Source of the DNA: Chromatiales bacterium
Lineage (GTDB): Bacteria > Pseudomonadota > Gammaproteobacteria > Thiohalomonadales > Thiohalomonadaceae
Assembly: GCA_029879245.1 (NCBI GenBank)
Contig: JAOUQQ010000015.1
Span: forward strand, 1-34,143
Direction of reading: 5' to 3'
Length of the DNA: 34,143 nucleotides
The notes under the pieces are model-generated. The model was given only the letters and a program-made list of their open reading frames with translations. It was not told the DNA's origin and made no database searches. A program made the position numbers and the translations under genes. This document shows, in pieces, positions 8,319 to 31,376 of this stretch. The first letter of the stretch is position 1; the number at the start of each line of letters is the position of its first letter.

Positions 8319-9512
8319 ATGGAAAACTCAAGTGGTATCGATACGCTATTTGTCCTGCTGGGTGCCATTATGGTACTGGCGATGCATGCCGGTTTTGCCT
8401 TCCTTGAGGTGGGCACGGTGCGTAAAAAGAATCAGGTTAATGCCCTGGTGAAGATCATTACCGACTTTGCCATCTCCACCATCGCCTATTTCTTTATCGG
8501 TTATGCAGTTGCTTATGGCGTTGGCTTCTTTGATAGCGCCAGGGATCTCAGCATCAACAATGGTTACGAGCTGGTAAAGTTCTTCTTCCTCCTCACCTTT
8601 GCCGCGGCGATCCCGGCGATTATCTCAGGCGGTATCGCCGAGCGCGCCCGTTTCTATCCGCAACTTATCGCCACCTTTGTTCTAGTTGCACTGATCTACC
8701 CCTTCTTCGAGGGTGTCGTGTGGAACGGTAACTTCAGAGTGCAGGCGTGGCTTGAGGCCACCTTTGGCGCCACCTTCCACGACTTCGCGGGCTCTATTGT
8801 CGTGCATGCGATGGGCGGCTGGCTGGCACTCGGCGCGGTGATCCTGCTGGGCCACCGCAAGGGGCGTTATGGCAAGAATGGCGAGGTCTACGCCCATCCC
8901 CCCTCAAGCATCCCCTTTCTGGCGCTGGGCGCCTGGATCCTCACTGTTGGCTGGTTCGGCTTTAACGTGATGTCGGCACAGAGTGTCGGCGGTATCTCCG
9001 GCCTGGTCGCCGTCAACTCCCTGATGGCGATGGTGGGCGGTATCCTCGCTGCGCTGTTTGTAGGTAAGAATGACCCTGGTTTCGTCCACAACGGCCCGCT
9101 CGCCGGTCTGGTGGCGGTGTGCGCCGGCTCCGATCTGATGCACCCGATGGGTGCCCTGATCACGGGCCTGGTAGCGGGTGGGCTCTTCGTCTGGACCTTC
9201 ACCCTGGTGCAGAACAGGTGGAAGATCGACGACGTACTCGGCGTCTGGCCACTGCACGGCCTGTGCGGTGCCTGGGGCGGCATCGCGGCAGGCATCTTCG
9301 GCCTGGAGGCGTTGGGTGGCATGGGGGGCGTTACCTTTATGTCGCAACTGATCGGCACACTCTTTGGTGTGGTGATCGCCACCGCTGGTGGTTTTGTCGT
9401 CTACGGTGCACTGAAACAGTTTATCGGCCTGCGTCTCTCCGAGGAGGAGGAGTATGAGGGTGCCGATCTGGCGATCCACAAGATTGCAGCAGAGCCTAAC
9501 TACGACCGTTAA
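8319..9512 (+). CDS. amtB: Ammonium transporter (Amt family)
   Basis: The 397-residue inner-membrane protein conducts ammonium/ammonia uptake. About eleven hydrophobic spans are visible. Family signatures include the conserved HDFAGSIVVHAMGG, whose second His (163) and His313 (VWPLHGLCGAWGG) form the pore twin-His pair, with Asp155 nearby, and SGGIAERARF. There is no cleavable signal sequence, unlike E. coli AmtB. The C-terminus has the acidic LRLSEEEEYEGADL element usual for the cytosolic tail that contacts PII proteins. No glnK gene lies next to it, which is the common arrangement, so its PII partner must be encoded elsewhere. Promoter elements upstream point to NtrC/sigma-54 control. Confidence 0.95.
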   Translation: MENSSGIDTLFVLLGAIMVLAMHAGFAFLEVGTVRKKNQVNALVKIITDFAISTIAYFFIGYAVAYGVGFFDSARDLSINNGYELVKFFFLLTFAAAIPAIISGGIAERARFYPQLIATFVLVALIYPFFEGVVWNGNFRVQAWLEATFGATFHDFAGSIVVHAMGGWLALGAVILLGHRKGRYGKNGEVYAHPPSSIPFLALGAWILTVGWFGFNVMSAQSVGGISGLVAVNSLMAMVGGILAALFVGKNDPGFVHNGPLAGLVAVCAGSDLMHPMGALITGLVAGGLFVWTFTLVQNRWKIDDVLGVWPLHGLCGAWGGIAAGIFGLEALGGMGGVTFMSQLIGTLFGVVIATAGGFVVYGALKQFIGLRLSEEEEYEGADLAIHKIAAEPNYDR

Positions 9513-9540
9513 ATCAGAGAGCGTTGTAGAGATGAAGAAT

Positions 9541-9560
9541 GGCCACAAGGCCCGTTTTTT
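9541..9560 (+). terminator. Weak terminator-like hairpin after the amt gene
   Basis: A short GGCC-ACAA-GGCC stem-loop is followed by CCG and six T residues. The stem is only four base pairs, but the T-run and location after the transporter gene favour a terminator. Confidence 0.45.
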
Positions 9561-9593
9561 ATGGCTCATATTCCAGTATCAAATATAAGTATA

Positions 9594-9622
9594 TTGCATA
9601 ATACTAATATTGATTGTATGAT
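9594..9622 (+). promoter_or_regulatory. Sigma-70 promoter of the Sel1-repeat gene
   Basis: TTGCAT (9594-9599) and TATGAT (9617-9622) are spaced by exactly 17 bases inside a distinctly AT-rich stretch. The start point would be near 9629, some 33 bases before the ATG, with GGAG at 9651-9654 as ribosome site. Confidence 0.75.
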
Positions 9623-9661
9623 GCTGCACTCTCAGGCAGACCCAATTCAAGGAGATGAGCG

Positions 9662-9955
9662 ATGAATACTCCATACAGCAGAGTCATTAAACCGGTGGTA
9701 CGTGCGATCATGTTGGTGGCGATTCCCTTGCTGAGCTTTGCCTCGGTAACTCATGCTATTGATCTGGAGAGGCCGGTGTTTGAGTTTCAAAGCAAGCTGG
9801 CCAATCAGGGCAATGCCACAGCGCAGTACTTCCTGGCCCAGATGTATGAAGAGGGGCGTGGTACTGAGGCTAATCCAGAGTTGGCAAAGCAGTGGTACGA
9901 GAAGGCGAAGCTTAACGGCTATGAGCCAGGAAGTGGCGCCGGCGTGGTCAACTAA
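9662..9955 (+). CDS. Small secreted Sel1-repeat protein
   Basis: The 97-residue product has a long N-terminal region with a hydrophobic core and probable signal cleavage after THA (about residue 32). The mature part of about 65 residues contains a single Sel1-like repeat ([20 protein letters not shown] ... A[12 protein letters not shown]). Sel1 repeats are TPR-like helical pairs for protein contacts; one copy alone is unusually small, so it probably works as a dimer or by binding a partner. It has its own strong promoter and lies between the ammonium transporter and recQ with no clear link to either. Confidence 0.75.
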
Positions 9956-9973
9956 TTACGCTGTTATCCACCA

Positions 9974-9996
9974 GGGGGCGGTGTATGATCGCCCCC
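9974..9996 (+). other. Inverted repeat enclosing the first recQ start codon
   Basis: GGGGGCG (9974-9980) can pair with CGCCCCC (9990-9996) with a nine-base loop holding the ATG at 9985; the second candidate ATG (9997) follows immediately. The left arm is also the only purine-rich ribosome site in the region, so the hairpin would mask it. Confidence 0.45.
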
Positions 9997-12135
9997 ATGA
10001 GTTCTCCCAATCCCCTGAGCATTTCGGCTCATCAAATCCTGCAACAGACCTTTGGCTACGACGCTTTTCGTCCGCAGCAGGGCGAGATCGTCGAGCAGCT
10101 GATCGGCGGTGGCGATGCCCTGGTGTTGATGCCCACCGGCGGCGGCAAGTCGCTCTGCTACCAAATCCCCTCGATGGTGCGGCGGGGGGTGGGGATCGTG
10201 GTCTCACCGCTGATTGCCCTGATGCAGGACCAGGTCGATGCCCTGCGGCAGAACGGGGTACGCGCCGCCTTTCTCAACTCCACCCTTAGCCTTGATGAGG
10301 TGCGCGAGGTGGAGTCCCAACTCCACCGTGGCGATCTGGACCTGCTCTACGTGGCGCCGGAGCGCCTGCTGCTGCCGCGTACGCTGGACCTGATTGAAAG
10401 TATCCCGGTCGCCCTGTTTGCCATCGACGAGGCGCACTGCGTCTCCCAGTGGGGGCACGACTTTCGTCCCGAGTATGTGCAGCTATCGATCCTGCACCAG
10501 CGCTTCCCCCATATCCCGCGCATCGCGCTGACCGCCACCGCCGACGGTGCAACGCGGCGCGAGATCATCGAGCGGCTGGCGCTTGAAAATGCCCGGCAGT
10601 TCATCAGCGGCTTCGACCGCCCCAATATCCGCTATCGCATCGCCGAGAGCCGCGGCAATGCCCGTGACGAGCTGTTGCGTTTTATCCGCAACGAGCACCA
10701 GGGGGAGGCGGGGATCGTCTACTGCCTCTCCAGAAAAAAGGTGGAAGAGGTAGCAAAGTGGCTCGCCACAAAGGGCGTGAATGCCCTGCCTTATCACGCA
10801 GGTATCCGGGCCGACGTGCGGGCACGGAATCAGCAGCGCTTCCTGCGCGAGGAGGGGGTGGTGATCGTCGCCACCATCGCCTTCGGTATGGGCATCGATA
10901 AGCCCGACGTGCGTTTTGTCGCCCACCTCAATCTGCCGAAGAGCCTGGAGGCCTACTATCAGGAGACCGGTCGCGCCGGGCGCGATGGCCAGCCCGCAGA
11001 CGCCTGGATGCTCTACGGCCTGCAGGATGTGATCACCTTAAAGCAGATGCAGGCCAGCTCCGATGCACCGGAACAGATCAAGCGTATTGAGCACCACAAG
11101 CTCGATGCGATGCTCGGCCTGTGTGAATTAACCAGCTGTCGTCGTCAGGCACTGCTGCGCTATTTTGACGACGAGCTGGCCGAGCCATGCGGTAACTGCG
11201 ACACCTGCCTGGAGCCGCCCGTCACCTGGGATGCCACCATCGCGGCACGCAAGGCACTCTCCTGCGTCCATCGCACCGGCCAGCGCTTCGGCGTCACCTA
11301 TCTGGTTGATGTGCTGTTGGGTAAGGGTAATACGCGAATACGCCATTTTGGCCATGACAAGGTGAGCACCTTTGGCATCGGACCTGAGCTTAACCAGAGC
11401 GAGTGGCGCAACCTCTACCGTCAGCTCATCGCCCACGGCCTGCTGGCGGTCGATATGGAGGGGCACGGAGGCCTGCACCTGACCGAGGCGAGTCGCCCGG
11501 TGTTGCGTGGTGAGCAGCCGCTACACTTGCGCAAACTCTCACGCAAGAAATCGATGAAGAGCCGTGAACGTAAGGCCAACCGCTTCGCCGATCAGGGGCA
11601 GGATAAATTGTGGCAGGCGTTGCGTAGCCGACGCCAGCAACTGGCCGACGAGCAGGGCATTCCTGCCTACATGATCTTCCACGACGCCACCCTGGGCGAG
11701 ATGGTGGAAAACCGTCCCGAGACCCTGGTGCAGCTCGCCAAAATCTCCGGCGTCGGCGCCAAGAAACTCGACGCCTACGGTGAGGCCTTTCTCGACGTGC
11801 TCAACGAATACCGCAACCTCGAAGATGACAGCCAGAGCGACAGCGAAGAGGAGACACTACAACTGTTTCGCCTCGGCATGGATGTGCCGGCCATCGCCGC
11901 ACAACGTGGCTTAAAAGAGACCACCGTCTACAACCACCTGAGCAAGGGCATAGAGCGCGGCGAGGTGCCGCTACGCGAAGTGGTAAAACTGGAAGACCAC
12001 CAACTCGAAGCGATCCGCTTCGCCCTCGAACACCATGACGGCGGCAAACGACTCAAGCCGGTGTTCGAGGCGCTGGAGGGGGAGTTTTCTTATGAGGTTT
12101 TGCGGTGTGTTAGGGCGGATGTGGTTGGGGGATAA
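9985..12135 (+). CDS. recQ: ATP-dependent DNA helicase RecQ, long form
   Basis: The product (716 residues from 9985, 712 from the in-frame ATG at 9997) unwinds DNA 3'-5' in repair. Order: helicase core with the Gln motif [10 protein letters not shown], Walker [13 protein letters not shown] box ([20 protein letters not shown]) and motif [12 protein letters not shown]; the zinc-binding RQC part with CELTSC...CGNCDTC; a winged helix; and an HRDC domain (about 525-610). Beyond it is an extra segment of roughly 90 residues with a helix-turn-helix look ([26 protein letters not shown]), known from some RecQ and Lhr-type helicases but absent from E. coli RecQ (about 610 residues). Which start is used is unclear because of the hairpin over the first one. 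Confidence 0.95.
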
Positions 12136-12194
12136 TAAGCGGAGTACCCTGTGCACTCTGTCAATTAACCAAGTAGTGTTTCAACATAAATTTA

Positions 12195-12572
12195 ATGGAT
12201 GACGATTGGTTGTTTGCTATGGGAAAATTTGAGTGGTATTCGATATATGTAGGTGCTGCGTATTTGTTATCTACAGGTGTGGCTTTTCAGGCTGTAGTAG
12301 TGTGGTATGCGAGGTATGTGAACAGCATAGGAAAGGTTGGTTCATTGGTGTCTGATATGGTCATGTTAATCAATCTTTCCGTTTTTTTCTTGGTGGGAAC
12401 ATTTTCTATCGGGGCTGTATTCGCGTATGGAAAAATCAAGGGTGTGCATGACATTTATGTGGATGTGTTTGCAATATCTCTAATTGCTTTTCTAGTATGT
12501 GTAGTAGTTATCCTGAAACTATTATCAAAAAAATTAAAAGAATGCGGCTTGGGAAATCATAACGCTAATTAG
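12195..12572 (+). CDS. AT-rich orphan membrane protein
   Basis: A 125-residue open frame with three hydrophobic segments (about residues 16-42, 50-78 and 88-112) and a Lys-rich C-terminus (KLLSKKLKECG). I do not recognise it. Base use is much more AT-rich than in recQ and rapA on both sides, and no good ribosome site stands before the ATG; a second in-frame Met lies at codon 9. A palindromic dispersed repeat follows directly after the stop. These points suggest horizontally acquired DNA. It could be an immunity- or effector-related small membrane protein, but nothing in the sequence proves that. Confidence 0.55.
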   Translation: MDDDWLFAMGKFEWYSIYVGAAYLLSTGVAFQAVVVWYARYVNSIGKVGSLVSDMVMLINLSVFFLVGTFSIGAVFAYGKIKGVHDIYVDVFAISLIAFLVCVVVILKLLSKKLKECGLGNHNAN

Positions 12573-12580
12573 AATTATTC

Positions 12581-12609
12581 CTCGCACCCACGCAGAGCGT
12601 GGGAACGAG
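12581..12609. repeat. REP-like palindromic repeat unit
   Basis: The element has CCCACGC (12587-12593), loop AGA, GCGTGGG (12597-12603), and outer arms CTCG (12581-12584) and CGAG (12606-12609) separated by a two-base mismatch on each side. From memory, near-identical units of the type CTCGTTCCCACGCTCTGCGT recur in many gammaproteobacterial genomes. Only one copy is seen in this window. It lies between the ends of convergent genes and may also end transcription. Confidence 0.65.
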
Positions 12610-12621
12610 AAGCTCCTTAGC

Positions 12622-15540
12622 CTACATCGCCACCACAACCCGAACCGCATCCAGCCTCGCTTTGGCAGAATCAAGCGCCAGGTCTAGCGCGCGCCACTGT
12701 TCACGGAAGAATTCCACCTCTTCCTCTCTCACGTTGGGATTAACGTGACGTAGCGCTTCCAGACGATCAATTTCACGGCTGAGCAGTTCGCCGCTCTGTT
12801 TGTGAGCGCTGGCGATAATCGCGGGGGCCTGTTGCTCGGCGAGGTTCTCGGCGCTGGCGATGATCTCGCGCAGCTCTTTTTCGTAGGCGCAGATCACTTT
12901 GTGGGCGGTGGCCTTTTCCAGCGGCTGGCGCTGGGCGTTGATCTCTTCGTGCGCGAGCTTGTCGGCGAGGTTGTTGCCGCTCTGGCCTACCAGCACACGA
13001 ATGGTGGTGGGGGGCAGGTAGCGCTCGGCGTGTAGCGCGGTGGCGGCGGTGCTCTCTACTACGAACAGCGCCTCCAGCAGCAGGGTGCCGGGTTTGATGC
13101 GCGTGCTTTTGATGGCTGTGATGGCGCTGTTGCCCAACTCTCCACTGAGGATGGTTTCCATAGCTGCGGTGGTGAGTGGATGATCCCAGGTCAGGTAGTG
13201 CAGGTCTTCGTTGGCCAGGGCGTGGTCACGTTCGCAGGTGAAGCTTATGCCATCCTCGCTAAGTCCGGGCAGGCCGCTCACCTGCATCTGCTCGCCGGGG
13301 CGGATCACGGTGCTGCGCTCACTGTGGGCCTCGCTGTCGATACCGAAGCAGTCGAACACCTTGTTCAGGTAGTCGGGCAGGGTGGTGAAGGCGTCATCCA
13401 GTTTTGCCTCTTGTTGAAGCTGTTGGGCGATGCCGGGGCGGCAGGAGTTGACCTCCAGCAGGCGGTCGCGGCCACGGTGCAGTTCATCGTCCAGCTCGCG
13501 GTGCAGCTGGTAGCTGGCCTCGATCAGGGCGCTCAGCAGCGCCTCGTCGTGGTCCGGGTGATGTAGCGCCGCCACCAGATCGGCGGCCACGCGCACGAAG
13601 ACACTGTGCCCGGCGGGACAGGTCTTCTCAAAGGCACCCAGCGCCTCGTGGTACCAGCGGAACATCAGCGCCTGGCCGCTGTGCTCCAGGTAGGGGACGT
13701 GGATATTAATGGTCTCGCTCTGACCGATGCGATCCAGGCGGCCGATGCGCTGCTCCAGCAGGTCGGGGTTGAGCGGCAGGTCGAACAGGATGAGGTGGTG
13801 GGCGAACTGGAAGTTGCGCCCCTCGCTGCCGATCTCCGAGCAGATCAACACCGGGCTGCCGAACTCCGGGTCGGCGAAGTAGGCGGCGGCGCGGTCGCGC
13901 TCCAGCAGGCTCATGTCCTCGTGGAATACTGCCGCGTGCAGGCCGGTGGTGACGCGCAGGTGTTCGGCCAGATCCATCGCGGTGTCGGCGCTGGCGGCGA
14001 TCACCAGCACCTTCTTGCCACGCAACGCCTTGAGCGTGTCGGCCAGCCACTGGGCGCGCGGGTCGATGCGGGTCCAGGGGGTGTGGGCGGCGGCATCATC
14101 GGCCTGCCCACTATCCGCTTGAAAGAGCAATTCGGGACAGAGCAGCAGCTGCGGCTCGTTGAGGCCGCTGGCACGGAATACCTTTAGTGTCTCGGCATAT
14201 TCGGCGGGCAGGGGCAGCGGATAGGGGTGCAGCTCCCGTCCGGGAAAGCCCTGCACCGCAGCGCGGGTGTTGCGGTAGAGGATGCGTCCGGTGCCGTGGC
14301 GGTCCAGCAGGTGGCTTACCAGTTCGTCGCGGGCGGTGGCGCGCTCGGCTTCACTCCCGGCCCCCTGTAGCGCGTCAAACAGCTCGCGGTTGTCCTCCTC
14401 GCCCAGCGACTCCATCAGCACCTGCCACGCCGCGTCGTCCAGCGGGCGGTTCTCCAGCAGCTCCTCCACCGCGTTGGCCACAGGCTCGTAGCCCTTTTCC
14501 TCGGCGACGAAGGTCTCGAAGTCGTGGAATCTGTCCGCATCGAGCAGGCGCAGGCGGGCGAAGTGGCTTGCCTTGCCCAGCTGCTCCGGGGTGGCGGTGA
14601 GCAGCAGTACGCCGGGGATCTTTCGGGCCAGCGCCTCTACCAGCTGATATTCGATGCTGGGGGCCTCGGGCGACCACTCCAGGTGGTGCGCCTCGTCTAC
14701 CACCAGCAGGTCCCACTCGCTTTGCAGGATCTGTTGCATGCGCGGCGGGTGATTATGGAGAAAATCCAGAGAACAGAGCACCAGCTGTGCCGAGTCGAAG
14801 GGGTTGGCCTGCTCACCGCTCTGCTCCACCGCCTGGCAGCGCGCCTCGTCAAAGATGGAGAAGTGCAGGTTGAAGCGGCGCACCATCTCCACCAGCCACT
14901 GGTGGGTAAGGCTCTCGGGCACCACGATAAGCACCCGCCGCGCCTGCCCGGTGAGCAGCTGCTGGTGCAGAATCAGGCCCGCCTCGATGGTCTTGCCCAG
15001 TCCTACCTCGTCGGCCAGCAGCACCCGTGGGGCGAAGCGCCCAGCCACCTCGTGAGCGATGTAGAGCTGGTGGGGCAGCAGGCTGGTGCGCACCCCGGTG
15101 AGGCCGCGCAGCGGCGAGTGGCCGAGGCGGTTGGCGTGTTGCAGGGTCTCGTAACGCAGGGCGAACCACTTGTCCGCGTCGAGCTGGCCGGTGAAGAGGC
15201 GCTCAGTGGGGCGACTCAGCTGCATCAGGTCGTTCAGCTCCCCCTCCGGCAGGGCGGTGAGCAGGCCATCGTCACTGCGACGGCCACCATAAATCAGCAG
15301 CCCGCCACGCTCCTCCACCGACTCGACGATGATCGACCACCCCTCCTGCGACTGCGCCTCATCCCCCGCCTTGAACTGCACCCGGGTCAGCGGCGCGCTC
15401 TGCCGGGCGTAAACCCGCTGCTCGCCGGTGGCAGGGAAGAGTACCGTCACGGTGCGGTGATCGGTATCGAGGATGGTGCCAAGGCCCATCTGCAGTTCTG
15501 CGTCGCTGATCCAGCGCTGGCCGGGGAGAAATTCTTGCAC
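12622..15540 (-). CDS. rapA: RNA polymerase-associated ATPase RapA
   Basis: A Swi2/Snf2-family ATPase that recycles RNA polymerase. The N-terminal region (GQRWISDAELQMGLGTILDTDHRTVTVLFPATGEQ) is the Tudor-like RapA domain. Motifs: Walker A LADEVGLGKTIEAGL, DEAH box VVDEAHHLEW, TATPEQ, and in the second RecA domain CSEIGSEGRNFQF and QRIGRLDRIGQ. I take the GTG at 15540 as start, giving 972 residues against 968 in E. coli and an N-terminus (VQEFLPGQRW) that fits the family; GAGG lies about eight bases upstream. The frame stays open to 15630, but the extra 30 residues look unlike the family. Long open frames on the opposite strand here are a by-product of its GC-rich codon use. Confidence 0.95.
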   Translation of the reverse strand: MQEFLPGQRWISDAELQMGLGTILDTDHRTVTVLFPATGEQRVYARQSAPLTRVQFKAGDEAQSQEGWSIIVESVEERGGLLIYGGRRSDDGLLTALPEGELNDLMQLSRPTERLFTGQLDADKWFALRYETLQHANRLGHSPLRGLTGVRTSLLPHQLYIAHEVAGRFAPRVLLADEVGLGKTIEAGLILHQQLLTGQARRVLIVVPESLTHQWLVEMVRRFNLHFSIFDEARCQAVEQSGEQANPFDSAQLVLCSLDFLHNHPPRMQQILQSEWDLLVVDEAHHLEWSPEAPSIEYQLVEALARKIPGVLLLTATPEQLGKASHFARLRLLDADRFHDFETFVAEEKGYEPVANAVEELLENRPLDDAAWQVLMESLGEEDNRELFDALQGAGSEAERATARDELVSHLLDRHGTGRILYRNTRAAVQGFPGRELHPYPLPLPAEYAETLKVFRASGLNEPQLLLCPELLFQADSGQADDAAAHTPWTRIDPRAQWLADTLKALRGKKVLVIAASADTAMDLAEHLRVTTGLHAAVFHEDMSLLERDRAAAYFADPEFGSPVLICSEIGSEGRNFQFAHHLILFDLPLNPDLLEQRIGRLDRIGQSETINIHVPYLEHSGQALMFRWYHEALGAFEKTCPAGHSVFVRVAADLVAALHHPDHDEALLSALIEASYQLHRELDDELHRGRDRLLEVNSCRPGIAQQLQQEAKLDDAFTTLPDYLNKVFDCFGIDSEAHSERSTVIRPGEQMQVSGLPGLSEDGISFTCERDHALANEDLHYLTWDHPLTTAAMETILSGELGNSAITAIKSTRIKPGTLLLEALFVVESTAATALHAERYLPPTTIRVLVGQSGNNLADKLAHEEINAQRQPLEKATAHKVICAYEKELREIIASAENLAEQQAPAIIASAHKQSGELLSREIDRLEALRHVNPNVREEEVEFFREQWRALDLALDSAKARLDAVRVVVAM

Positions 15541-26434: not shown

Positions 26435-26737
26435 ATGCCTTTGAAATTACACACATATTTACTATTGATTGTAGGCACCATTTTACTGGTAGGCTGTGCG
26501 GTAGTGCCGCCTGTACAGGAGATGAGCGATGCACGGCAGGCTCTGGAGGCAGCAAGGGAGGCAGATGCTGCAAAATATGCGGAACAGAAGTTGCGCAGTG
26601 CGGAAGATTCAATGGAATTGGCAACACGGACCCTCAATCAGGGTGAGTATGAGGCGGCACGCATGGCCGCAGTCGTGGCGAGAGCGTTGGCAATCAAAGC
26701 GAGGGATGAGGCGTTGGCGGCCAAACGTGTGAAGTGA
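26435..26737 (+). CDS. DUF4398-type lipoprotein
   Basis: The 100-residue product has a lipoprotein signal with lipobox LVGC (Cys21). The mature part is a charged, Ala-rich helical hairpin (ARQALEAAREADAAKYAEQKLRSAEDSME and on), as in the DUF4398 family. It should sit on the periplasmic face of a membrane. It is followed by a second, related lipoprotein that adds a LysM domain. Role is unknown; a cell-wall-linked structural role is plausible. Confidence 0.8.
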   Translation: MPLKLHTYLLLIVGTILLVGCAVVPPVQEMSDARQALEAAREADAAKYAEQKLRSAEDSMELATRTLNQGEYEAARMAAVVARALAIKARDEALAAKRVK

Positions 26738-26786
26738 TTTTTAACATAATGGCGCAAAAAGTGTGGAAATGGTCACGCAAGTTACC

Positions 26787-26816
26787 TTGACACGGTTTTA
26801 CAGCAAGTGCTAATTT
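26787..26816 (+). promoter_or_regulatory. Promoter of the LysM lipoprotein gene
   Basis: TTGACA (26787-26792) and TAATTT (26811-26816) are spaced by 18 bases and lie about 55 bases before the ATG, in an AT-rich leader. Confidence 0.6.
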
Positions 26817-26871
26817 CCCCTACAGGGTACTGCGTTATTCAATAAATCCAAACAGTGGAGACAACAAGACA

Positions 26872-27474
26872 ATGAACATTTTCCAAGGAGTTAAATTTGC
26901 CGCACTAATCGCACTTGTGCTGAGTATTGCGGTAGGTTGTGCCAGCACTCCGGAGCCAGAGCCGGAAGATCAGCGCGCAATCGCTGAGCAGGCTATCGCC
27001 GATGCCAAGGCTGCCAACGAGCGTGCCAAAGACGCTGGTGCCGAGTGGCGTGATACCGAAGAGCTGATCAAGCAGGCCGAGGAGGCTTTCGCTGCCGAAG
27101 ACTATCCGAAGGCTATTGAACTGGCCAACCAGGCGCGTCGTCAGGCCGAAAACGCCCTGCGTCAGCATCAGGCGGAGATGAACAAGGCGAAGCCTGTTGC
27201 GAACGACGGTTACACCGTCATGTCCGGTGATACCCTGTGGGGCATCTCTTCAAAGAGTTCCATCTATGGTAACCCGTACCAGTGGCCACTCATCTATAAG
27301 GCCAATCGTAGCCAGATCAAAGATGCTGACCTGATCTACCCCGGTCAGAATCTGGTAATCCAGCGTGATGCCTCTGCGGCGGAGATCGATGCAGCGGTTA
27401 ACCATGCCCGTAACCGTGGTGCCTGGTCTATCGGTGTTGTTGAGTCTAGCGATGAGGCCTATCTCTCACGCTAA
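26872..27474 (+). CDS. LysM-domain lipoprotein with DUF4398-like helical region
   Basis: The 200-residue product has a lipobox AVGC (Cys23), an acidic linker, an Ala/Glu-rich helical region (about 35-108) related to the preceding small lipoprotein, and a LysM domain (about 113-162: GYTVMSGDTLWGISSKSSIYGN ... IYPGQNLVI) for peptidoglycan binding. A C-terminal tail of about 35 residues follows. It likely links the outer membrane to the cell wall. The promoter upstream and the terminator downstream make it a single-gene unit. Confidence 0.88.
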   Translation: MNIFQGVKFAALIALVLSIAVGCASTPEPEPEDQRAIAEQAIADAKAANERAKDAGAEWRDTEELIKQAEEAFAAEDYPKAIELANQARRQAENALRQHQAEMNKAKPVANDGYTVMSGDTLWGISSKSSIYGNPYQWPLIYKANRSQIKDADLIYPGQNLVIQRDASAAEIDAAVNHARNRGAWSIGVVESSDEAYLSR

Positions 27475-27578: not shown

Positions 27579-28121
27579 ATGAAGGCAATTGAGAACATTT
27601 TTGAGAGCATCTTGTGGGAGAGTCGTCTGGCGGTGCTATTTGCCGTAGTGGCGAGTCTGTTGAGTGCATTGGCGGTGTTTTATATGGCGACGGTGGATGC
27701 CTTCTACATGATAAGCCACCTGGGAGAGTATGCCTCCCCGGCGCTGGATAGTGCTGCAAGAAATGAGTTACGTAGCAGTACCATTACCCACGTTGTGGAA
27801 ATTGTCGATGGCTATCTCCTGGCGACGGTGTTACTGATATTCTCTCTTGGATTATATGAACTCTTTATCAGTAAGATTGAAAAGGCAGAGCAGTCCGAGA
27901 AGGCATCCAACGTGATGTTAATTACCAGTCTTGATGACCTTAAGGGGCGTCTGGCCAAGGTGATCCTGATGATTCTGATCGTTAAGTTCTTTGAGCATGC
28001 GATCGGTATGGCTTTCAAATCTGCACTGGATCTATTGTATCTGGCAGCCGGTATATGCCTGCTTGGACTTGCGCTATTTCTCTCGCATGTTGGTGAGGGA
28101 AAGTCTCACAAGCCTGAATAG
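27579..28121 (+). CDS. YqhA/UPF0114-family inner-membrane protein
   Basis: The 180-residue product has spans at about 18-38, 76-93, 126-143 and 150-170 and matches the YqhA family pattern (IENIFESILWESRLAVLFAVVASLLSALAVFYMATVDAF ... DGYLLATVLLIFSLGLYELFISKI ... DLKGRLAKVILMILIVKFFEHAI). The ATG at 27579 is the start that gives the family N-terminus; the open frame reaches back into the terminator region. Function is unknown. It stands first in a run of co-directional genes leading to the TolC-family gene. Confidence 0.82.
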   Translation: MKAIENIFESILWESRLAVLFAVVASLLSALAVFYMATVDAFYMISHLGEYASPALDSAARNELRSSTITHVVEIVDGYLLATVLLIFSLGLYELFISKIEKAEQSEKASNVMLITSLDDLKGRLAKVILMILIVKFFEHAIGMAFKSALDLLYLAAGICLLGLALFLSHVGEGKSHKPE

Positions 28122-28155
28122 TGAAACTTCTACATGTATGAACAGTCGAAGGTCT

Positions 28156-28659
28156 ATGAAATGCCATATGGTAGCTAACATGAGAGTTTTTGCACTATTC
28201 GTACTGTTTGTTTTTAGCGCTCCACTACTTGCAATGCAGGTTGACCTTGAACTCACCGACCTGGATGGTCGAACTTTTAAGTTATCCGACTATCGCGGAA
28301 AGTGGGTGGTGCTTAATTACTGGGCAACGTGGTGCCCCCCGTGTCTGGAAGAGATCCCTGAATTGGTCCATTTTCATGAGAATCATAAAGATGATGATGC
28401 AGTAGTGATCGGGATCGATATGGAGATGCTACAGTTAGAGGTATTAAAAGAGTTTGTAGATGATTACTTCATGACATATCCCGTAGTACCGCTGGTAGCT
28501 GGGATGCCCGCCTTTGACAATGTAGAAAACTTTCCGACAACCTACCTAATCGATCCGAATGGTGTGGCGGTAGTAAAACATGTTGGGCCCGTAACCGTTG
28601 ATGCTATAGAGAAATTCATTAAAGACTATGTTCCTGAGAAAAGTGCAAGTCGTGACTAA
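28156..28659 (+). CDS. TlpA/ResA-type periplasmic thioredoxin
   Basis: The 167-residue protein (from the ATG at 28156) has a signal peptide ending near LLAM (about residues 24-27), then a redoxin domain with FKLSDYRGKWVVLNYWATWCPPCLEEIPEL; active site WCPPC is C60/C63. The FPTTYLIDPNGV element carries the cis-Pro. Such proteins reduce disulfides in the periplasm, for instance in cytochrome maturation. The ATG at 28156 was preferred because GAAGG stands three bases before it; ATGs at 28168 and 28180 are in frame and would also leave a signal peptide. It is closely followed by the SoxW-like gene. Confidence 0.88.
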   Translation: MKCHMVANMRVFALFVLFVFSAPLLAMQVDLELTDLDGRTFKLSDYRGKWVVLNYWATWCPPCLEEIPELVHFHENHKDDDAVVIGIDMEMLQLEVLKEFVDDYFMTYPVVPLVAGMPAFDNVENFPTTYLIDPNGVAVVKHVGPVTVDAIEKFIKDYVPEKSASRD

Positions 28660-28661
28660 CT

Positions 28662-29198
28662 ATGAAGACATACTGTAATCGAATTTTTGTCATATTATGT
28701 ACAATCACTCTTCTGCCGGCCATAGTGTGGGCAGAGACGCCGCGCGATCCCTATACCTATTTCTTTAATGAAACATTTGGTGATTTCTCCGAAGAGCTGG
28801 TGACTGCCCGCGATGAAGGGAAGAAGGGAATTATGATCTTCTTTGAGATGGATGAGTGTCCATTCTGTCATTACATGAAGGGAAACGTACTTAATCGTCC
28901 ATCGGTGCAGGAATATTACCGGGAAAAATTTCTCCTCTTTGCGGTAGATATAGAGGGCGATCTGGAGATCGTGGACTTTGATGGCAGCAGGATGTCGCAA
29001 AAAGATTATGCCTTCAAACAACATCGGGTTCGTGCAACACCTGTGTTTGCCTTTTTTGATCTGAATGGTGAGCGGATACATCGTCATACAGGTAAGACAT
29101 CAGGTATTGATGAGTTTATGTTGATGGGTGAATTTGTGGCAGAGGGACACTATCGAGATACCACATTTACCCGTTATAAGCGCAGTAAAAAGAAGTAA
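28662..29198 (+). CDS. SoxW-like periplasmic thioredoxin
   Basis: The 178-residue product has a signal peptide (about 1-24, cleavage near VWA) and one thioredoxin domain: FFEMDECPFCHYMK with CPFC at 66-69, VDIEGDLEIVDFDG, and RATPVFAFFDLNG with the cis-Pro. The tail EFVAEGHYRDTTFTRY (157-172) matches the ends of both domains of the protein at 5016, so the three domains form one subfamily. The start lies two bases after the previous stop and the end lies three bases before the TolC-family gene, so it is surely in the same transcript. Confidence 0.85.
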   Translation: MKTYCNRIFVILCTITLLPAIVWAETPRDPYTYFFNETFGDFSEELVTARDEGKKGIMIFFEMDECPFCHYMKGNVLNRPSVQEYYREKFLLFAVDIEGDLEIVDFDGSRMSQKDYAFKQHRVRATPVFAFFDLNGERIHRHTGKTSGIDEFMLMGEFVAEGHYRDTTFTRYKRSKKK

Positions 29199-29201
29199 TC
29201 A

Positions 29202-30545
29202 ATGCCAGAGCATGCAGTGACTCGGATCTGCATAGTTGGCTCGCTTATCGCCATATTACTACCTGTTTCGGTACAGGCGGATTGTTCAAAGCCATTACCT
29301 CAACCCCTGACACTAGATAATGCACTGTCACAGCTGGAGTGCGACACAGCGTCCATGCAACAGGCCCGTTCGGCCCAGGCGAAGGCAAACGCACGGCTCC
29401 AGACTAGTGAAGCTGAAGATGATCTGAGCATTATTGCAGAGGGGAGATTGCGTTGGGTTGAGACATCACCTTCACAGGGTGGTGATGTGATTGATGATCA
29501 CAAGGGCTCTATATTTGTACGAAAGCCACTTTACGATTTTGGACGTAGTGGCGCATTGCAACAGGCAGCCCGAAGTGAGGCGCAGGCGATGGTGAGTCAC
29601 TATCAGTCAACTCAGGATCAACAGCGTGTGGCGATTATGCAGGCCTTTTTTAATGTACTACAGGCTGATCAGGAGAATTTTCGTGATAATGAAGCGATGG
29701 CGGTTGCCTATGTCACGCTGGATCGCATGAAGAGTCATCAGGAGTTGGGGCAGACTTCAGATATTGAGGTAATGGAGCAGGAGAGTCTCTACCAGAATGT
29801 TAGATATCAGGTGCTGCAGAGCGAATCAAATCAGCGTCTGACTCGATCTATCCTAGCCAATATTCTTAACCGCCCCGATGAATTACCCTCTGAACTGGTA
29901 AGCCCAGAATTTAGTCATGCCCAACGCAAGCTACCAGACTATGAAAGGTTGTTGCAGTTGGCTTTTGAGCATAATCCCCGATTGATGTCACTGAAGCTGG
30001 AGCTTGATGCCGCATTGCAACGAACTACCGCGGCTCAAAACAGTAAGCTCCCTCGTCTTGATGGTGAGATTGAGGCATCAAGTTACACTCGAGAGTTGGG
30101 TTCCAGTGACAGTCTGCGCGCGGGGGTTACCCTGAGTATTCCAATCTACAATGGTGGTCGTGTCGATGCAGCTATAGCCACTGCAGAGGCTGAGGTGATG
30201 CGTTTAAGGGGAAAACTGACGGAGTCACGTCATGAATTGCGTCAGGCACTACTGGAACAGTGGTTTTCGATACGGCGACTTATGATCAGACGCCAGCGAG
30301 AAGAGAGTACTCTGGCGTATCGTGAGCTCTATCTGGATCGCAGCCGTGCCAACTATGAAATGGAGGTGAAGGCTGATCTGGGTGATGCCATGGTGCGGTT
30401 GAGTGAAGCGCAGCTGGCACTTCTGAAGGTGGACTTTGAGACAGCCCTTGCATGGGAGCATCTGCGTTCATTGGTTGGCGTGGAGATGGACCAGTTACTC
30501 GCGGTAGATGACACGAGGATAAAGGAGGGGAGTAATGGTAATTAA
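29202..30545 (+). CDS. TolC-family outer-membrane channel protein
   Basis: The 447-residue product has a signal peptide (cleavage near VQA), then two related halves of long helices with short strand segments: the first begins LTLDNALSQLECDTASMQQARSAQAKANARL, the second (about 245-447) has the family sequence LMSLKLELDAALQRTTAAQNSKLPRLDGEIEASSY and LRAGVTLSIPIYNGGRVDAAIATAEAEV. TolC relatives form trimeric tunnels through the outer membrane and periplasm. Length is normal for the family. The end overlaps the adaptor gene by 11 bases. A Cys near the mature N-terminus (ADCSKP) and one at CDTAS could form a disulfide. Confidence 0.9.
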   Translation: MPEHAVTRICIVGSLIAILLPVSVQADCSKPLPQPLTLDNALSQLECDTASMQQARSAQAKANARLQTSEAEDDLSIIAEGRLRWVETSPSQGGDVIDDHKGSIFVRKPLYDFGRSGALQQAARSEAQAMVSHYQSTQDQQRVAIMQAFFNVLQADQENFRDNEAMAVAYVTLDRMKSHQELGQTSDIEVMEQESLYQNVRYQVLQSESNQRLTRSILANILNRPDELPSELVSPEFSHAQRKLPDYERLLQLAFEHNPRLMSLKLELDAALQRTTAAQNSKLPRLDGEIEASSYTRELGSSDSLRAGVTLSIPIYNGGRVDAAIATAEAEVMRLRGKLTESRHELRQALLEQWFSIRRLMIRRQREESTLAYRELYLDRSRANYEMEVKADLGDAMVRLSEAQLALLKVDFETALAWEHLRSLVGVEMDQLLAVDDTRIKEGSNGN

Positions 30546-31077
30546 AAGAGGTCTCTTGCTACCGGTTCTGCTTCTGTTCGGTATCACCGCTCTCTATGTG
30601 AATGCATCATACGGGCAAGCCGGATCCGAAAATATGCTAACACTCTCCAGCAATCTCGCCGCAGAGGTAGTAGCGGTAAAGATAAAGTCGGGCGAGAGGG
30701 TTAAGAAGGGAGTTTTGTTGATACAGCTTGACACCAAAGTAGCGGCTGCCGATCTTCAACAGGCGCGTGCAGAGCTCGCCCATCAAAAGCTCCTGCTCAA
30801 GGAGGCCGCAAGTGAGCTGCAGCGTAGTGAGGAGCTCTATGATCGCACCCTGCTTTCTGAGCACGATTTGACTGTTGCAAGAATTGCTGAGGCGGCGGCT
30901 AAAAGCAGTTATCAGCGGGCACTCTTTGCGGTGAGCGAAAAACAGCACAACCTTGATCTTCGTCAGATCGTTGCGCCATTTAATGCACGGGTGCTTGATG
31001 TCTACGTCAAGACCGGCGAGACGATTAATGGTTACTACCAGTCGGTAAAGCTGATCACACTGCAGGCAGAAAATTAG
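30535..31077 (+). CDS. Miniature periplasmic adaptor (HlyD/RND membrane-fusion type)
   Basis: The 180-residue product has an N-terminal hydrophobic segment (signal or anchor, about 6-24). It then shows the first half of a lipoyl-like domain (EVVAVKIKSGERVKKGVLLIQLDTKVAAADLQQA), a coiled-coil hairpin (about 62-140), and the second lipoyl half (IVAPFNARVLDVYVKTGETI). The usual beta-barrel and membrane-proximal domains are missing: normal adaptors have 350 or more residues. No frame break is seen; the gene ends in an orderly way (LITLQAEN). No RND, MFS or ABC inner-membrane gene follows. It likely docks to the TolC-family channel just upstream. Confidence 0.8.
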   Translation: MVIKRGLLLPVLLLFGITALYVNASYGQAGSENMLTLSSNLAAEVVAVKIKSGERVKKGVLLIQLDTKVAAADLQQARAELAHQKLLLKEAASELQRSEELYDRTLLSEHDLTVARIAEAAAKSSYQRALFAVSEKQHNLDLRQIVAPFNARVLDVYVKTGETINGYYQSVKLITLQAEN

Positions 31078-31082
31078 TACGA

Positions 31083-31376
31083 ATGTGCGGTGCAGATGAC
31101 AGAACTGTTTTGCGTTGTTCACGCTGCATTGTCACAGGGAGAGTACAGGGAGTCTGGTTCAGGGACTCGACCCGCCGGCAGGCAGGGCGGCTGCGGTTAA
31201 AGGGATCCGCTACCAACTTGCGTGATGGCAGTGTAGAGGTGATAGCGTGCGGTGATGAGGCTGCCCTTGAACAGTTACAACGCTGGTTGTGGCAGGGGCC
31301 TGATATGGCGCAGGTCAGTGATGTTCGCTGTGAAGAGGTGGCGTTGGAACTACCGCCCGGTTTTACAATTGGTTGA
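31083..31376 (+). CDS. acyP: Acylphosphatase
   Basis: This 97-residue enzyme hydrolyses acyl phosphates. The catalytic loop GRVQGVWFR (Arg) and the Asn of GSATNLRDGSVEV are both present, as is the C-terminal LPPGFTI element. The N-terminus has three cysteines and is a few residues longer than usual. The gene follows the adaptor gene after five bases and may share its transcript, though that is probably fortuitous. It ends one base before the convergent transglycosylase stop. Confidence 0.92.
   Translation: MCGADDRTVLRCSRCIVTGRVQGVWFRDSTRRQAGRLRLKGSATNLRDGSVEVIACGDEAALEQLQRWLWQGPDMAQVSDVRCEEVALELPPGFTIG

Follow-up and report, generated by a model that had tools for sequence, protein, structure and literature searches.

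A conserved gene block of periplasmic thioredoxins, a TolC-family channel and a short adaptor, found mainly in soxB-bearing genomes

Gene content and conservation of the block

The window analyzed here, that is, the whole stretch of 34,143 nucleotides on contig JAOUQQ010000015.1 of assembly GCA_029879245.1 (contig C124 in our labelling of this genome), carries a cluster of five genes between positions 27579 and 31077 that code for a small membrane protein, two periplasmic thioredoxins, an outer-membrane channel of the TolC family and a short adaptor. An acylphosphatase gene lies directly downstream (lengths in amino acids, aa):

27579..28121, + strand: UPF0114/YqhA-like small membrane protein, 180 aa (PF03350, E 2.8e-31)
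28156..28659, + strand: TlpA/ResA-type periplasmic thioredoxin with a WCPPC motif (PF00578, E 2.2e-21)
28662..29198, + strand: "SoxW-like" periplasmic thioredoxin with a DECPFCH motif and a predicted DsbD-gamma/DsbH-type reductase fold (PF13098, E 2.2e-15; also PF13899)
29202..30545, + strand: TolC-family outer-membrane channel of a distinct subfamily (PF02321, E 9.3e-30)
30535..31077, + strand: mini-adaptor, 180 aa (PF13533, 2.6e-6, just under the cut-off)
31083..31376, + strand: acylphosphatase (PF00708, E 4.4e-22)

The Pfam names of the five cluster genes are, in order, UPF0114, AhpC/TSA-Redoxin, Thioredoxin_2/Thioredoxin_7, OEP and a half lipoyl domain, and the adaptor further matches the NCBIfam family RND_mfp at 4.8e-21, under the cut-off of that family. 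An initial annotation of this DNA had described five codirectional genes spaced 34, 2 and 3 bases apart with one 11-base overlap, here between the TolC and adaptor genes, an arrangement that proved exact to the base. It had also stated that no RND, MFS or ABC transporter belongs to the cluster, and we likewise found no inner-membrane transporter gene between positions 26435 and 31989 of the window.

We gathered gene neighborhoods around relatives of the adaptor and of the SoxW-like protein and tallied 64 loci with both SoxW and TolC, a gene being counted as near if no more than 2 kb away and on the same strand. One order, TlpA-SoxW-TolC-adaptor, returns throughout these neighborhoods, with acylphosphatase often coming next. 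SoxW and TolC are near in all 64 loci and the adaptor (HlyD) in 63, which argues that the grouping is not due to chance; TlpA and acylphosphatase are each near in 43. The YqhA gene, which the initial annotation had counted as a cluster member, is indeed present in the window, but it is near the block in only 3/64 loci and is thus an optional member outside the conserved core of TlpA, SoxW, TolC and adaptor. The acylphosphatase is a frequent downstream neighbor and probably not a functional part of the block. None of the usual flanking genes (wrbA/LysM/AcyP/SLT) occurs in 12 of the 64 loci, and the block is still whole there; hence, synteny alone is an insufficient explanation, and hitch-hiking inside a syntenic stretch was rejected. 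The block also reaches another class, in G409 (L128, 2-3791), where SoxW, TolC and a mini-adaptor adjoin genes resembling a cbb3 oxidase and its assembly factors. Profile searches of a class sample of 370 genomes, which may be weighted toward relatives of the window (thresholds of E <= 1e-30 for SoxW and E <= 1e-55 for TolC), recovered the SoxW family in 101 genomes, the TolC family in 90 and both in 89; in 85 of these 89, SoxW lies no more than 300 bp upstream of TolC.

Upstream of the cluster, at 26435-27474, lie two DUF4398 lipoprotein-like genes, a pair that travels with the TolC block in many relatives. The second has a LysM domain and matches the NCBIfam model of the SoxAX-binding protein SAXB over residues 12 to 105 (E 6e-20, under the cut-off). 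Two small-genome relatives have a second small thioredoxin-like gene near the block, beside argininosuccinate lyase (L065, 3375-3860; L072, 11460-11945).

The channel, the adaptor and the search for a linked pump

The profile of the TolC subfamily matches solved TolC structures with E values of about 1e-15 to 1e-11 (best, 4.9e-15), and an alignment of 16 members shows a conserved motif in the second repeat, YEMEVK.DLGDAMVRLSEAQL. The accompanying adaptor is usually about 255 residues long in relatives, compared with 180 aa in the window. The profile of the adaptor family aligns to residues 26-255 of the 347 residues of MexJ and ends about 90 residues before the MexJ terminus; therefore, even the full-length members of the family are without the last part, the one that makes up the membrane-proximal domain of known adaptors. 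The window copy stops earlier, at position 182 of the 257 in the profile, and so lacks the beta-barrel as well as the membrane-proximal domain, in agreement with the initial description of an adaptor reduced to its lipoyl and coiled-coil parts. Counting the window, 8 of 63 loci have such a short form without the beta-barrel, and the remaining 55 retain the barrel. By alignment, the adaptor of L044 is another short form, and adaptors with open frames of 165-192 residues are found in several families.

A structural model of the window adaptor (predicted local distance difference test [pLDDT] score of 90.5) combines a closed lipoyl domain with a hairpin whose two helices span residues 68-103 and 109-141 (36 and 33 residues, respectively). 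A fold search with this model retrieved AcrA, MexC-like and MacA structures as the closest. The hairpin tip, RSEELYDRTLLS, is of the RLS type, R97-x3-L101-x6-S108 with spacings of +4 and +7, an arrangement that is known to contact TolC and that recurs in most relatives. The N terminus is signal-like, and the sequence shows no obvious lipobox or second membrane helix. As modeled, then, the window adaptor is the channel-facing half alone, with the pump-docking domains gone. We considered whether it might be a decayed pseudogene and rejected this on the basis of its confidently predicted fold, the start of the next gene 6 bases on and the recurrence of short forms in several families.

Of 73 loci, just two have RND-like genes in the vicinity of the block, each time on the opposite strand. 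Among 108 neighbors left unassigned, Pfam revealed no recurrent exporter family, a comparison that lists the commoner families and that a single MFS or ABC neighbor could escape; ammonium, chromate and TRAP transporters appear once each. The conserved pump-free neighborhood that the initial annotation had envisaged, with SoxW and TolC occurring together, is thus borne out: 89 genomes share both families, 85 of them with adjacent genes, and no exporter recurs nearby.

The thioredoxins, DsbD and the association with sox genes

The TlpA-like protein has W59, C60, P62 and C63 invariant across 19 relatives. Its first ATG, at 28156, leaves an awkward leader; judged from the sequence, translation from the ATG at 28180 would yield a clean signal peptide, and this second start is equally likely or the probable one. 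In the SoxW-like protein, C66, P67 and C69 (CPxC) are invariant. Its AlphaFold model displays a thioredoxin fold with a mean pLDDT of 94.6, and its nearest solved folds include a Helicobacter pylori DsbC-like protein, DsbD-gamma and DsbH. The NCBIfam matches are weak ones only, to DsbH and TsoB; "SoxW" is used here as a label and not as a statement of orthology to Paracoccus SoxW. Judged from the model and its structural neighbors, the protein is reductase-like.

A candidate electron source for these proteins emerged from the neighborhoods. The dsbD gene directly follows the adaptor in L099 and L102 (at distances of 4 and 68 bases between the open frames) and in L044, lies two genes past it in L092 (SoxW-TolC-adaptor-cutA-dsbD-tlpA) and is found in the order SoxW-dsbD-tlpA in L079. 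Linkage in 5 of 73 loci compares with roughly 0.2 expected (P of about 2e-6 if genes are placed at random and loci are independent, with L079 and L102 coming from one family). Thus, in some loci the place expected for a pump gene is taken by that of an inner-membrane protein that conducts electrons. The own genome has one DsbD, encoded away from the block in the operon cutA-dsbD-aroQ-accB-accC (L122, contig C153), which is without the tlpA found downstream of dsbD in L092. It is as if the tlpA of this genome had moved from the dsbD operon to the TolC cluster.

A diverged SoxW-like gene is present in L067 (351-9333; G181:C3), 5.6 kb from soxB, after a gene for a phosphate-selective-porin-like protein and overlapping a YeeE/YedE (Sulf_transp) gene; an ankyrin-repeat protein and a 1046-residue protein with MACPF and PAN domains are encoded beyond it (9398-14796). 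Gene lengths had raised the suspicion of a SoxW-adaptor-RND operon at this locus, which was abandoned once the proteins were seen to be porin-like, SoxW-like, Sulf_transp, ankyrin and MACPF.

The distribution of the block is closely tied to that of sulfur oxidation genes. In the class sample, soxB is present in 86 of the 90 TolC carriers and in 75 of the 280 other genomes (Fisher p of 1.5e-33, a value uncorrected for phylogeny that overstates the number of independent events), soxB-positive carriers being found in 45 of the 47 carrier families. Similarly, the SoxW family goes together with soxB in 96 of its 101 genomes. Of the four TolC carriers without SoxB, G203 and G074 have SoxA and G260 has a partial SoxA match together with DsrA, which leaves G396, a fragmented draft, as the only carrier with no Sox gene. 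DsrA is the weaker correlate (67/90 TolC carriers) and was set aside as the main link. In a phylum-wide sample, the TolC family was recovered in 3 of 377 genomes, namely, the own genome and two others, one of them from another class, all soxB positive. The own genome has SoxB on contig C112 and SoxA on contig C163, and DsrA is also present. Despite the sampling weight, it is clear that the block is restricted to sox-bearing genomes, and its association with soxB is new in this analysis. The initial annotation had proposed the handling or export of a thiol or sulfur compound: the sulfur or thiol link is strongly supported by the near-exclusive occurrence in soxB-bearing genomes, and export of such a compound through the tunnel is a prediction that goes beyond this distribution.

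Functional interpretation and comparison with known systems

On the basis of these observations, we tentatively propose, with somewhat less than even confidence, that the block is a DsbD-fed thiol-reduction operon built around a pump-free TolC conduit and serving Sox-dependent sulfur oxidation. DsbD would pass electrons from cytoplasmic thioredoxin over the inner membrane to the SoxW-like and TlpA-like reductases. The TolC trimer, topped by a ring of the short soluble adaptor bound to its tip, may form a passive passage between the periplasm and the outside, at which the reductases would hold the cargo or its carrier as a thiol or persulfide. Sulfane sulfur, polysulfide or a small thiol reductant could then cross the outer membrane, either feeding the Sox pathway or being released by it. 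A bolder version, which we regard as unlikely, is a redox-driven trans-envelope system in which DsbD replaces the solute pump and, via the SoxW and TlpA reductases, drives the exchange of thiols, persulfides or polysulfides through the TolC-adaptor tunnel, supplying Sox oxidizers with zero-valent sulfur or ridding them of it.

Several points weigh against the proposed conduit. A pump, be it of the MFS or ABC type, may be encoded outside the block; the N-terminal helix of the adaptor, if uncleaved, could act as an anchor; and dsbD is adjacent in no more than the five loci noted above. The block lies outside the sox operon, and the SoxW-like gene is not beside soxV in the own genome. The 75 soxB-positive genomes of the class sample that are without this TolC indicate that the block is not required for Sox, and the co-occurrence test draws, without correction for phylogeny, on a sample weighted toward relatives of the window. 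The cargo and the direction of its movement are predictions.

TolC channels often work with unlinked pumps, and a first alternative builds on this precedent: TolC and the short adaptor would join an unlinked inner-membrane pump to make an ordinary tripartite exporter, and the thioredoxins, merely cotranscribed, would mature or protect envelope proteins. Favorable to it are the four RND operons of the own genome, which are without a TolC of their own, and the retention in most relatives (55/63) of the adaptor beta-barrel, a domain that contacts RND pumps. However, each of these four full RND pumps has a full-length adaptor encoded just before it, and one of the three TolC proteins of this genome is a separate one of the ordinary type, on contig C181. 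Moreover, the adaptors of the block are without the region past the barrel and the mini-adaptors without the barrel too, no pump is linked in 73 loci, and a general exporter fits poorly with the restriction to sox-bearing genomes. We consider this alternative improbable.

We judge it quite doubtful that the thioredoxins are instead a SoxW/SoxS-like system that reactivates SoxYZ or aids c-type cytochrome maturation, fed by DsbD in place of SoxV, with TolC and the adaptor exporting a disulfide-containing peptide or a toxic by-product and belonging to the operon through a common induction by sulfur compounds. The prevalence of soxB among SoxW-family genomes, the adjacency of dsbD, the DsbD-gamma/DsbH-like fold and the diverged SoxW member of G181, close to soxB and overlapping the YeeE/YedE gene, are all in keeping with such a role; yet it leaves unexplained why SoxW is tied so tightly to TolC (89 of 90 TolC carriers) when the second thioredoxin is near in 43/64 loci. 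Very improbable is the notion that the genes stand together only through a conserved housekeeping stretch (wrbA, LysM protein, acylphosphatase, SLT and proS), common as that stretch is to many loci, and form no functional unit, since the block is intact in other surroundings in 12 loci, sits beside cbb3-oxidase-like genes in another class (G409), and has genes that overlap or almost touch.

Under the DsbD-fed conduit reading, the block bears on an open question, namely, how elemental sulfur (S0), polysulfide and sulfur-mobilizing thiols pass over the outer membrane of sulfur oxidizers, for which it is a concrete candidate; it suggests an undescribed route for sulfur or thiols across that membrane. 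If the reading is true, the block would also represent a TolC assembly that lacks a pump by nature, one that shows which features an adaptor requires once its channel end alone remains. A literature search for SoxW or TlpA with TolC, or for TolC in sulfur oxidizers, yielded no description of such an operon in its coverage, to which subscription papers mostly did not belong. In Sulfurovum, TolC/HlyD genes rise with S0, which was read as secretion for attachment (PMC10045233). To account for the mobilization of extracellular S0, reviews of sulfur oxidation have invoked small thiols that are excreted or unnamed thiol proteins of the outer membrane (PMC6335251, PMC8232776). These proposals, like ours, place thiol chemistry at the outer membrane of sulfur oxidizers, but they are physiological and, in the portions of the two papers available to us, name no transporter, TolC or thioredoxin operon.

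The block can be set against three known systems. With tripartite TolC efflux (AcrAB-TolC, MacAB-TolC, MexJK and EmrAB), it has in common the TolC-family channel and an adaptor with a lipoyl domain and the R-x3-L-x6-S hairpin tip; it differs in having no linked inner-membrane transporter, in adaptors without the membrane-proximal domain and, in the window copy, also without the beta-barrel, and in adding two predicted thiol reductases. With the Paracoccus-type SoxV-SoxW-SoxS branch, it shares a periplasmic thioredoxin tied by occurrence to SoxB and a likely electron delivery of the CcdA/DsbD type; unlike that branch, it lies outside the sox operon, is partnered with TolC and an adaptor and, where linked, has DsbD rather than SoxV. 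Finally, it resembles the DsbD-TlpA/CcmG pathway (cutA-dsbD-tlpA-aroQ-accBC operons) in its reductase-type thioredoxins and, in L044, L079, L092, L099 and L102, in its linkage to dsbD, whereas it adds to that pathway a TolC channel with its adaptor and a correlation with sox genes.

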